Shown here: positions 6,656 to 10,226 of the stretch, piece by piece
Numbering within the stretch: the stretch's first letter is position 1
Layout: each line of letters starts with the position of its first letter
Assembly: GCA_026414305.1 (NCBI GenBank)
Contig: JAOAJH010000001.1
Location: forward strand, 124,001-188,000
DNA from: Candidatus Aenigmatarchaeota archaeon
Lineage (GTDB): Archaea > Aenigmatarchaeota > Aenigmatarchaeia > CG10238-14
Length of the DNA stretch: 64,000 nucleotides
Direction of reading: 5' to 3'
Notes under the pieces: model-generated
Told to the model about the DNA's origin: nothing
The model's input: the letters and a program-made list of their open reading frames with translations, nothing else
Database searches by the model: none
Program-made: the position numbers and the translations under genes

Positions 6656-9001
6656 ATGGAATTTACACCAAAATTAAAAGAAAAGCAATGGGACAAGTCT
6701 ATTGAGCAGTTAATGTTCAAAAAATGGCAGGAAGAAAAACTTTACAAGTTCGACAAAAAAAGCAAAAAGCCTGTTTATAGCATAGACACACCACCGCCTT
6801 ATGTCAATACGCCAATACACATAGGCCATGCTTATACTTATGTCTGGCAAGACATGATGGCTAGAAGCAGAAGAATGATGGGTTTTAATGTCCTTTTTCC
6901 GATAGGTCTAGATAAAAATGGCTTGCCTATAGAAGTCATGGCTGAAAAGGTTTTCAACATAAAAATGCATGAAACTCCTAGAGAAGAATTTATAAAAAAA
7001 TGCAAAGAAATGCTTGAAAAGGCCGGAGATGCATCTCTAGATTCTTTTAAAAAACTTGGGCTAAGCTGCAACAGCTGGAATGTTGAATATGATCTAGGCG
7101 GCAGATATGATACTGATGATCCTGAATATAGAAAGTTGACACAAGAAACTTTCATAGAATTATGGAATAAAGGACTAATATATGAAGATGTAAAACCAAC
7201 AAATTATTGCCCTATATGCAAGACAGCAATAGCAGATGCTGAAGTTGAGTATAAAGAAGGGAAGACTAAACTAAATTACATCCAGTTTAAAGTGAAAGAA
7301 ACAAGAGAGAAGATAACAATAGCAACTACAAGGCCAGAATTGCTTTGCGCATGCAAGGTTATTTTGTTTAATCCTGATGATGATAGGTATAAGCATTTAA
7401 ACGGCAAGCATGCAATAGTTCCTGTTTTTGATAAAGAAGTTGAAATAAAGGCACATCCATATGCAAAACAAGATTTTGGTTCTGGTTTGGTCATGATATG
7501 CAGTTTTGGAGATTATTCTGATGTAAGAATTTTGAGGGAGTTGAATATAGAGCCGACTTATAGTATTGACATAGATGGAAGGATGAATGAAAATGCTGGT
7601 TTTCTGAAAGGGATGAAAGTGGAAGAAGCCAGACAAACAATAATAAAATATCTCAAAGATGAAGGATTATTAATCAAACAGGAAGAAATGGATCATAGAG
7701 AGCCTATATGCTGGCGATCAAAAAATCCAATAGAGTTTGTTCCATTAAAAGAGTTTTACCTTAAACAGGTTGATTTTCTTGACAAGCTCAGATCAGCTGC
7801 AGATAAAATGAATTTTTTTGCACCTGAAAGCAAGCAGATATTGATTGACTGGATAAATTCTGTTACAATAGATTGGGTTTTGTCAAGAAGAAGATTTTAT
7901 GGTACAGAAGTTCCTTTGTGGTATTGCAAGAAATGCAATTATATATTTGTTCCTCAACCAGGAAAATATTATCAACCGTGGAAAGAAAAGCCTCCTATAA
8001 AAGAATGTCCTGAATGCGGCAGCAAGGAATTCAGAGGCGAGGAAAGAACGTTTGACACGTGGTTTGACTCATCATCATCAGAGGCTTATGTTTTAGGATA
8101 TTTATGGGACAAGCAATTTTTCAAAAGCAATTTTCCATGTAGCATGAGGCCACAAGGTAAAGAAATAGTAAGAAACTGGCTTTATTACACTTTGCTTAAA
8201 TCCATCCATCTTTACGGCAAGCCCCCATTCAAGGATTGCTGGATACATATGCATGTTGTTGATGAAAAAGGAGAAAAGATGAGCAAGTCTCTTGGAAATG
8301 TCATAGATCCTCATGAAATACTTGAAAAGTACGGCGCCGAAGCATTCAGAATATGGTCTTGTTTAGAAGGCGACATAACTACAGGAGACATAAGATGCTC
8401 TTTTGCAAGAATTGAAGGCAATTCAAAATTCATCACAAAATTATGGAATATAGCTAGATTTATTTCAATGTTCCCTGAAAGAAAAGCAGAACTTGTGGAC
8501 ACAGATAAATGGATATTAGACGAGCTAGGAAGACTAGTTGACAGAGTGATCGACTGCTATAAAAATTATAAATTTAGCAACGCGGCCAATGAAATAAGAG
8601 AGTTTACTTGGAATGTTTTTGCTTCGCATTATTTAGAAATGGTCAAGGTAAGATCTTACGGACAAGGTTTTACAAAAAAAGAGCAGGAATCAGCATGGTA
8701 TACAATGCATGTTGTGTTAAAAACATTGTTAAAACTGCTAGCACCCATAATGCCGTTTATGACTGACTATGTGTGGAGGCAGATATACTCGGACAAAAGT
8801 ATACATATTGAATCTATTCCAAAAAACGAGTGGGTGTTTGGGTTGCAGAGCTATACAGAAAAAATAACAGCATTCAATTCGGATGTGTGGAAAATGAAGA
8901 AAGACAAAGGTTACAGCTTGAAATCAGAAATAAATATAGAAATACCAGAAGAATTAAAAATGTTTAGGAAAGATTTAATAAAGATGCACAATATTGTTTA
9001 A
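6656..9001 (+). CDS. valS: Valyl-tRNA synthetase
   Basis: Charges tRNA-Val; class I synthetase. Visible in order are the HIGH motif in TPIHIGHAYTYVWQD, a GLDKNGLPIE segment, a zinc finger NYCPICK, the CP1 editing domain with TIATTRPELL, a second zinc ribbon (WYCKKC then CPECG), the FDTWFDSSSS loop and KMSKSLGNV. The archaeal form is usually about 860-890 residues; this one has 781 and stops soon after the anticodon-binding helices, so the C-terminal region is shortened. The start is the ATG at 6656. An ileucyl or leucyl identity is less likely given the HIGH region and the editing domain. Confidence 0.93.
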   Translation: MEFTPKLKEKQWDKSIEQLMFKKWQEEKLYKFDKKSKKPVYSIDTPPPYVNTPIHIGHAYTYVWQDMMARSRRMMGFNVLFPIGLDKNGLPIEVMAEKVFNIKMHETPREEFIKKCKEMLEKAGDASLDSFKKLGLSCNSWNVEYDLGGRYDTDDPEYRKLTQETFIELWNKGLIYEDVKPTNYCPICKTAIADAEVEYKEGKTKLNYIQFKVKETREKITIATTRPELLCACKVILFNPDDDRYKHLNGKHAIVPVFDKEVEIKAHPYAKQDFGSGLVMICSFGDYSDVRILRELNIEPTYSIDIDGRMNENAGFLKGMKVEEARQTIIKYLKDEGLLIKQEEMDHREPICWRSKNPIEFVPLKEFYLKQVDFLDKLRSAADKMNFFAPESKQILIDWINSVTIDWVLSRRRFYGTEVPLWYCKKCNYIFVPQPGKYYQPWKEKPPIKECPECGSKEFRGEERTFDTWFDSSSSEAYVLGYLWDKQFFKSNFPCSMRPQGKEIVRNWLYYTLLKSIHLYGKPPFKDCWIHMHVVDEKGEKMSKSLGNVIDPHEILEKYGAEAFRIWSCLEGDITTGDIRCSFARIEGNSKFITKLWNIARFISMFPERKAELVDTDKWILDELGRLVDRVIDCYKNYKFSNAANEIREFTWNVFASHYLEMVKVRSYGQGFTKKEQESAWYTMHVVLKTLLKLLAPIMPFMTDYVWRQIYSDKSIHIESIPKNEWVFGLQSYTEKITAFNSDVWKMKKDKGYSLKSEINIEIPEELKMFRKDLIKMHNIV

Positions 9002-9008
9002 AGGGTGA

Positions 9009-10226
9009 ATTGTATTTAGCTCAAATGAAGAAGCAAAACTTAAGCTGAAAAAACTTCTAGACGAACTTGAAAAAATTAAAGGAAGACATACAGAGTTGAT
9101 ATCTGTTTACATTCCAAAAGGATTTAATTTGCAAGAAGTTTTGAACATGCTTAAACAAGAATATGCTGTTACACAGAATGTTAAATCAAGAGTCACAAGA
9201 AAGAACGTGCTTGATGCTTTAGAAAAGATAACAAACCACCTACGCCAATTCAATCAAACACCGCCAAATGGTTTGGCTGTTTTTGCCGGCAATATATCTC
9301 AAGTTGAAGGTCAGAGTGATATACAAATTTGGTCCATAGAACCACCTGAAGAATTGACTGTTAAAATGTATTGGTGTGATCAAACTTTTGCTTTAGAACC
9401 ATTGAAAGACATGGTAAGAGAAAAAGAAATATATGGTTTGATATTAATTGACACATCAGGAACAGATGTTGGCTTGCTCATAGGCAAGAAAATAGTTTTG
9501 GAAAAGCATATAGACAGTTTAGTTCCAGGCAAGACAACCAAAGGTGGATGGAGCCAGCAAAGGTATGCGCGCATAAGGGAGGAAGCAAAGTTAGAGCATC
9601 TAAAGAAATCTGGAGAGGAAGCAAGCGAAATCTTTAAACAATACAAAGATCTTAAAGGCATAATTATAGGCGGTCCAGGTCCATTAAAAGACAAGTTTTT
9701 TGAAGGAGAATTTCTTGACTATACCTTGAGAAAAAAAATATTGGGTGTAGTTGACACAAGCTATCTCGGTATACAAGGTTTAGAGGAAGCAGTTCACAGA
9801 GGTGAAGAATTAATAAAAGAAGCAGCTGTTATAAAAGAGAGGCAGCTTATGCAAAAATTTTTCACACATATACAGAAAGACGATGGTTTAGCAGTTTACA
9901 AGCTAGAGGATATAATAAAGGCAATAGACTATGGTGCTGTTGAGACTTTGCTTGTTTCAGAATCTTTCAATTGGGTTAAATTCAATTTAACATGCCAATG
10001 TGGTGTCAAAATAGAAAAAGCAGGGAAAAGAGGCGATGTTTTCAAATGTCCAAACTGCGGAGCTGTTATGAACGCTGTTGATCACAAAGATCTTGCTGAC
10101 ATATTGGCAGAAAAAGTGAAAGAAATTGGTGGAAATGTTGAAATAATATCAAAAGAGTCTAGAGAAGGCCAATCGCTTAAAGAAATCGGCGGAATTGGCG
10201 CTTTGTTAAGGTATAGACTGCAATAA
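9009..10226 (+). CDS. prf1: Peptide chain release factor aRF1, GGW instead of GGQ
   Basis: Class I release factor that recognises stop codons and releases the peptide. The first TTG in frame (9096) would cut off conserved residues. The upstream frame encodes KLKLKKLLDELEKIKGRHTE, as in the family, back to an ATT at 9009 right after an in-frame stop and behind AGGGTGA. Start at ATT is therefore likely, giving 405 residues. The NIKS-type motif is NVKS (about 57-60). The catalytic loop, normally GGQSA.RF, reads KGGWSQQRYARIRE, so the key Gln is Trp at about 181. The zinc-finger region (CQCG then CPNCG) and the C-terminal GGIGALLRY are normal. Whether this protein still hydrolyses peptidyl-tRNA is unclear. 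Confidence 0.93.
   Translation: MVFSSNEEAKLKLKKLLDELEKIKGRHTELISVYIPKGFNLQEVLNMLKQEYAVTQNVKSRVTRKNVLDALEKITNHLRQFNQTPPNGLAVFAGNISQVEGQSDIQIWSIEPPEELTVKMYWCDQTFALEPLKDMVREKEIYGLILIDTSGTDVGLLIGKKIVLEKHIDSLVPGKTTKGGWSQQRYARIREEAKLEHLKKSGEEASEIFKQYKDLKGIIIGGPGPLKDKFFEGEFLDYTLRKKILGVVDTSYLGIQGLEEAVHRGEELIKEAAVIKERQLMQKFFTHIQKDDGLAVYKLEDIIKAIDYGAVETLLVSESFNWVKFNLTCQCGVKIEKAGKRGDVFKCPNCGAVMNAVDHKDLADILAEKVKEIGGNVEIISKESREGQSLKEIGGIGALLRYRLQ

Follow-up and report, generated by a model that had tools for sequence, protein, structure and literature searches.

The window analyzed here is a stretch of 64,000 nucleotides from an Aenigmatarchaeota genome of 819 kb, estimated to be 95% complete. It contains a gene for the archaeal class I release factor aRF1, which follows a valyl-tRNA synthetase-like gene ending 2 bases 5' of a Shine-Dalgarno-like element. 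The catalytic GGQ glutamine of these factors is, to our knowledge, called universally conserved, and the window gene encodes tryptophan in its place. The features of the locus are as follows.

6656..9001, + strand: valyl-tRNA synthetase-like gene, 5' of aRF1 (best PDB match ValRS 1gax, E 3.9e-108)
9003..9008, + strand: GGGTGA, Shine-Dalgarno-like by its letters; the GTG at 9005-9007 shares the frame of the ATT at 9014
9009..10226, + strand: aRF1 reading frame (frame 0); open between an in-frame TGA at 9006-9008 and the TAA at 10224-10226
9014..9019, + strand: ATT TAG, which in the -1 frame is AUU and then a stop; it overlaps the frame-0 TTT AGC at 9015-9020; proposed start and +1 frameshift site
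9021-10226, + strand: protein P0001, the window aRF1, by translation
9177..9188, + strand: NVKS in the N domain, by translation (N53, K55, and S56 invariant in a 14-row alignment)
9369..9389, + strand: YWCDQTF, by translation (Y117, C119, D120, and F123 invariant in the 14-row alignment)
9543..9551, + strand: GGT GGA TGG, the GGW codons replacing GGQ, aligned to the GGQ of 65 genomes of the phylum
9552..9557, + strand: AGC CAG, Ser-Gln, placing Gln at +2 to give GGxSQ, from the letters and a conservation count
9993..10058, + strand: CxC...CxxC, putative zinc mini-domain in domain 3, read from the letters alone

NVKS is the NIKS-type stop-codon motif and YWCDQTF the YxCxxxF stop-codon motif. 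The catalytic loop reads KGGWSQQRY, encoded from 9543 by GGT GGA TGG AGC CAG CAA. The initial annotation of this DNA had reported GGW in place of GGQ, and the TGG is indeed present at 9549-9551, the quoted start of 9550 being one base late.

It had also described the rest of the protein as otherwise normal aRF1, which agrees with the following comparisons. P0001 scored 437.4 bits against the aRF1 equivalog model TIGR03676 (cut-off 234.7), and eRF1 domains 1, 2, and 3 (PF03463, PF03464, and PF03465) were all above their cut-offs, PF03465 (eRF1_3) with 95.5 bits. We rejected assignment to Pelota, as the TIGR00111 score of 93.5 bits fell under the cut-off of 177.65. The AlphaFold2 model of P0001 had a mean pLDDT of 81.5 and a pTM of 0.51, with the GG loop among its low-confidence stretches, and its best structural match was the archaeal aRF1 4af1 (Z 31.0, rmsd 8.1, 400 residues aligned). 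The window protein thus shares with known aRF1 and eRF1 proteins the three domains, the stop-codon motifs, the zinc mini-domain region, the GG of the loop, and the 4af1 fold. It differs from them in having GGW where a canonical aRF1 has GGQ with its catalytic Gln, and its genome differs in that no HemK2 was detected there above the TIGR00537 cut-off. The window protein is a variant of the aRF1 family and no canonical member of it.

We use GGX for the motif with W, M, or Y in place of Q. P0001 had a match in 147 of the 156 genomes sampled from the phylum, some of these matches being less than a full aRF1, and the motif was readable in 138 genomes and unreadable in 18. Among the readable genomes, 54 had GGW, 18 had GGM, one had GGY, and 65 had GGQ, so that the glutamine has been replaced naturally in 73 of 138, always by W, M, or Y. 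The alignment showed that GGX loops keep the GG and the Ser after X, with unchanged spacing to the R-Y/F-x-R residues. On an aRF1 tree of 146 rows, built by a quick method with the loop columns and L141 (the second piece of G135) left out, the motif changed between GGQ and GGX at least six times; three independent pairs lay on well-supported branches and six on all branches.

This distribution bears on the possibility of an artefact, either a sequencing error or TGG decoded as Gln. All of the sequences are MAG sequences, which is the one point in its favor, but 73 genomes in many families agree, and sister lineages use ATG or TAT at the same codon. The nearest relative (96% identical) also has GGW, as do all nine readable genomes of the window's own family; the initial annotation had judged a single sequencing error unlikely and had proposed aligning relatives. 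Furthermore, at least five TGG codons of the neighboring synthetase align, by eye, with Trp of its PDB homologue. We consider an artefact extremely improbable.

Outside the phylum, the GGQ pattern was matched in 149 of 236 other archaea (203 of 392 genomes overall with the pattern, minus 54 phylum rows). We searched 50 of the outsiders lacking the pattern for aRF1 and could read 46, of which 45 had GGQ and one, G386, had GGW; a further 41 of the 236 were neither pattern-matched nor read. The G386 protein is a bona fide aRF1 (464 bits) with GGWSQ, in a genome whose TIGR00537 match is weak (7.2e-7). A pattern for the X codon, which covered W, M, Leu-TTG, and Arg-AGG and would miss Tyr and intein-split genes, found further GGWSQ outside the phylum only in G263, G385, G390, and G316. 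The aRF1 proper of G263, G385, and G316 is GGQ, and the GGWSQ gene of G316 was read in part. The GGWSQ genes of G390, G263, and G385 (L228, L229, and L230) are eRF1-superfamily paralogues that score under the aRF1 cut-off and weakly match hibernation-factor models. We tried to place them as VLRF1-like, and they stay unclassified, with no NCBIfam model above cut-off. A search of the open-access PMC literature found nothing on non-GGQ aRF1, including for Aenigmatarchaeota combined with release factor. The family is a known one, and GGX aRF1 is a new variant within it.

HemK2/MTQ2 methylates the GGQ glutamine. We called HemK2 from the best TIGR00537 match per genome, with E<=1e-25 standing in for the 87-bit cut-off, and found it in 46 of 65 GGQ genomes vs none of 73 GGX genomes (Fisher 1e-21, ancestry ignored). 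Among genomes at least 90% complete, the counts were 14 of 15 and 0 of 22. At this threshold, however, 19 of the 65 GGQ genomes were likewise without a HemK2 match, so losing HemK2 does not compel a change to GGX. HemK2 followed the GGQ/GGX state in 2.3 of the three well-supported pairs on average, and never the reverse. With only three such pairs, allowing for ancestry leaves the association without significance (median p 0.5).

The line between the highest-scoring GGX genes and accepted HemK2 genes is thin. The best TIGR00537 scores in GGX genomes, all under 87 bits, were 85.3 (G118), 85.1 (G010), 81.0 (G127), and 73.5 (G128), and the GGW genomes G118 and G010 thereby outscore GGQ genes that were accepted by eye in G123 (79.2 bits) and G096 (74.3 bits). 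Accepted GGQ genes carry NPPYLP or a near form, whereas the sub-cut-off genes have DPPF in G010, NPPF in G127, and NVPF in G118, so that G118 and G010 are without the NPPY motif. The best models for the G010, G118, and G127 genes are generic methyltransferases, and the TIGR00537 match in the window genome fits the GCD14 tRNA methyltransferase family.

Two GGQ genomes nested in a mostly GGW family have HemK2-like genes: that of G119, a fragment at the end of a contig, scores 92.6 bits, and that of G123, which has NPPYLP, scores 79.2 bits. G126, the third GGQ member of that family, is 58% complete and has no HemK2 match. The GGM genome G030 (L185) has a bacterial-type PrmC above cut-off (232 bits), which is possibly contamination (estimated at 3%) or a gene transfer. 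Human HEMK2 prefers G-Q-x3-R (PMC10804810), and GGWSQ offers no such target. Separately, four GGW genomes of family f10 (L181, L184, L186, and L188) have a small RsmC-like methyltransferase gene on the aRF1 contig, at ~2 kb from aRF1 in three of them and ~6 kb in G046.

The loop position two residues after X also distinguishes the groups. Gln occupies it in 63 of 72 readable GGX genomes vs 7 of 63 GGQ genomes, one GGX and two GGQ genomes being unreadable there; the other GGQ genomes have Ser (34) or Ala (22). The remaining nine GGX genomes have Ala: six GGWSAN (G129, G136, G141, G127, G128, and G133), one GGWSAS (G117), and two GGMSA, followed by R in G025 (MSAR) and by G in G030 (MSAG). In some GGX loops, neither Gln nor Asn occurs among the three residues that follow X. 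The +2 Gln is strongly associated with GGX, yet not obligatory.

One alternative follows directly from this position: the catalytic Gln may have moved, such that the +2 Gln of GGxSQ enters the peptidyl-transferase center and X is a spacer, as proposed for archaeal VLRF1-type factors. The high frequency of SQ in GGX genomes is what this would predict, and G386 and the GGW paralogues of G263, G385, and G390 are all GGWSQ. GGxSQ is the loop given for both archaeal (aVLRF1) and actinobacterial (acVLRF1) VLRF1 (PMC6514570). The window protein shares this GG-x-S-Q spacing with archaeal VLRF1 (Vms1-like), as GGWSQ, but it scores as aRF1 (437 bits) and has a C-terminal eRF1_3 domain that is reported to be absent from aVLRF1 (PMC6514570). 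The nine genomes with Ala at +2 mean that the +2 Gln is not the whole answer. In addition, X is always W, M, or Y, which is unlike a free spacer, and there are only three independent pairs. We regard a moved Gln as possible but rather doubtful. The suggestion of the initial annotation that the Gln two residues on could substitute fits the 63 genomes and fails in the nine.

The same loop is a site of intein-like inserts, which lie directly 3' of the GGX codons (X here including Q) in 26 of the 138 aRF1 genes read in the phylum and in 7 of the 46 read outside it (e.g. L046-L048, L059-L068, L139-L156, and L298-L306). In those read, they begin with Cys and end with His-Asn-Ser. The 26 are split into 10 W, 6 M, and 10 Q, so the intein is not tied to GGX, and we ruled it out as the cause of GGX given the inserts in 10 GGQ genes. 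We found no literature on aRF1 inteins in open-access PMC.

The ribosome was compared at positions of the peptidyl-transferase region. Among 65 genomes searched, 44 yielded 23S genes, and 42 were aligned over this region (17 GGQ and 25 GGX), with gaps or missing bases at key positions in up to four GGQ rows and one GGX row. At G2505, U2506, G2553, G2583, U2584, U2585, and A2602 (E. coli numbering as we assigned it), there was no substitution in the aligned bases of either group, and A2451 was A in every row but one that was misaligned. GGQ and GGX genomes thus do not differ in the peptidyl-transferase center at the checked positions. We set aside compensation in the ribosome, as these 23S positions do not separate the groups. 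As side observations on these genes (L231-L260 and L307-L318), 37 of the 42 genomes, GGQ and GGX alike, have T where the alignment places E. coli C2452, U2504 is C in 9 of 25 GGX vs 1 of 17 GGQ genomes, and insertions interrupt several of the 23S genes close to the peptidyl-transferase region.

Another alternative is that GGX aRF1 reads stops without hydrolyzing the ester and leaves release to another activity, for example a peptidyl-tRNA hydrolase, some additional factor, or an enzyme that cuts the 3' end of the tRNA, as reported for Vms1/ANKZF1. Loss of both the Gln and its methylase would fit a changed chemistry, and Vms1/ANKZF1, of the same superfamily, cleaves the CCA end (PMC12868832). 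Against this, the GG is retained, and the bacterial-type factor PF00472 was absent from all 28 genomes searched (21 GGX and 7 GGQ). PF03464, applied to 21 GGX genomes with a completeness of 90% or more, detected only aRF1, whole or split in two, and no more than one weak Pelota-sized match per genome, which was classified for the window genome (G000) alone, as aPelota. There, the eRF1-family matches are two, the aRF1 gene and the aPelota, the latter above its own cut-off. The second class I factor or separate GGQ aRF1 that the initial annotation had raised was not found in this genome. Its premise that all three stops are in use was correct for the window, with 19 TAA, 18 TGA, and 12 TAG among 49 mechanically chosen long frames. 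It had offered either a shifted catalytic geometry or another factor; a lineage-wide change is borne out by the 73 GGX genomes, but no other class I factor turned up. We consider release by a different activity to be improbable.

Based on these results, we favor, with somewhat better than even confidence, an ordinary single stop-codon-reading aRF1 in which the lineage replaced the GGQ Gln by a bulky non-Gln residue (Trp, Met, or once Tyr) and which still works. Such a factor would still release the peptide by ribosome-catalyzed hydrolysis. The two glycines would place the loop in the peptidyl-transferase center, where the main-chain NH of residue X would assist in binding both water and the transition state, while its large side chain would take over the packing role of Gln. 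The +2 Gln would then be an auxiliary help in most GGX genomes, perhaps supplying an amide, and gone in a few sub-lineages. With no Gln to methylate, HemK2 may have been lost; or HemK2 may have been lost first, freeing the Gln to change. A contrary fact is that GGQ mutations are reported to inactivate RF1 and RF2 (PMC8131318). A factor that keeps the GG, the main-chain NH, and a large packing side chain could retain useful activity. GGX aRF1 makes testable an old debate on the role of the Gln side chain vs that of the main chain and packing, and it also bears on whether the presence of the Gln is the only reason why methylation is important.

The gene start was also unusual; like GGM, GGY, and the absence of HemK2, it was unforeseen by the initial annotation. 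In frame 0, the first ATG, GTG, or TTG after the TGA at 9006-9008 is a TTG at 9096, already within conserved sequence. Where relatives have ATG, the window has A-TTT-AGC, which one base back reads ATT TAG C (9014-9020), a stop after a slippery codon with no full-length in-frame start downstream. This invariant A-TTT-A[A/G] (AUU-UAR) overlap, with no ATG at the start, is present in 22 of the order's 31 aRF1 genes, including that of the window (21 found by script, plus G015), and it follows a Shine-Dalgarno-like stretch in those genomes. Twenty of the 22 genes have no upstream frame-0 ATG, GTG, or TTG (G003 and G005 have TTG), and in 17 of the 22 the stop is followed by C.

These overlaps may represent frameshift control of aRF1 at the gene start, a proposal that we find evenly balanced. 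Initiation would occur at or just before AUU, the ribosome would pause at UAR depending on the aRF1 level, and a +1 slip would bring it into the aRF1 frame. Known +1 frameshift sites (PMC3521657) are CUU UAG C and CUU UAA C in the eRF1-type factors of Mimivirus and Megavirus and CUU UGA C in bacterial RF2. The window's AUU UAG C shares with them the order of codon, stop, and C, with UUU in the +1 frame (PMC3521657); it differs in having AUU instead of CUU and in lying at the very start of the gene. Arguments on the other side are that a slip from AUU to UUU would sacrifice the first base pair, that no start codon is certain, and that the motif in its loose form is frequent in these genomes: GGTG-N6-ATTTARY alone also occurs elsewhere in them, and a reversed-pattern control matches too. 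The gene may instead start by non-AUG initiation at UUU or GUA. We found no open-access PMC literature on frameshifting in archaeal aRF1 genes. Should the proposed gene start prove correct, release-factor self-control by frameshifting would exist in archaea, as it does in bacterial RF2 and giant viruses. Only tentatively do we advance the full combination, in which archaeal lineages terminate without the Gln side chain, have shed the methylase, and, in one order, switch on the gene by a start-site AUU-UAR +1 frameshift, through which the factor senses its own termination activity.

Simpler starts, with an ATG elsewhere or a GTG in the shifted frame, were rejected as fitting part of the set only; the GTG two codons 5' of ATT is present in many genomes and missing in G016, G019, G024, G027, G032, and G034. 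Similar overlaps occur in G143, of another family, and in G167, G189, and G209, which are GGQ genomes outside the phylum where the overlap comes with an in-frame GTG.
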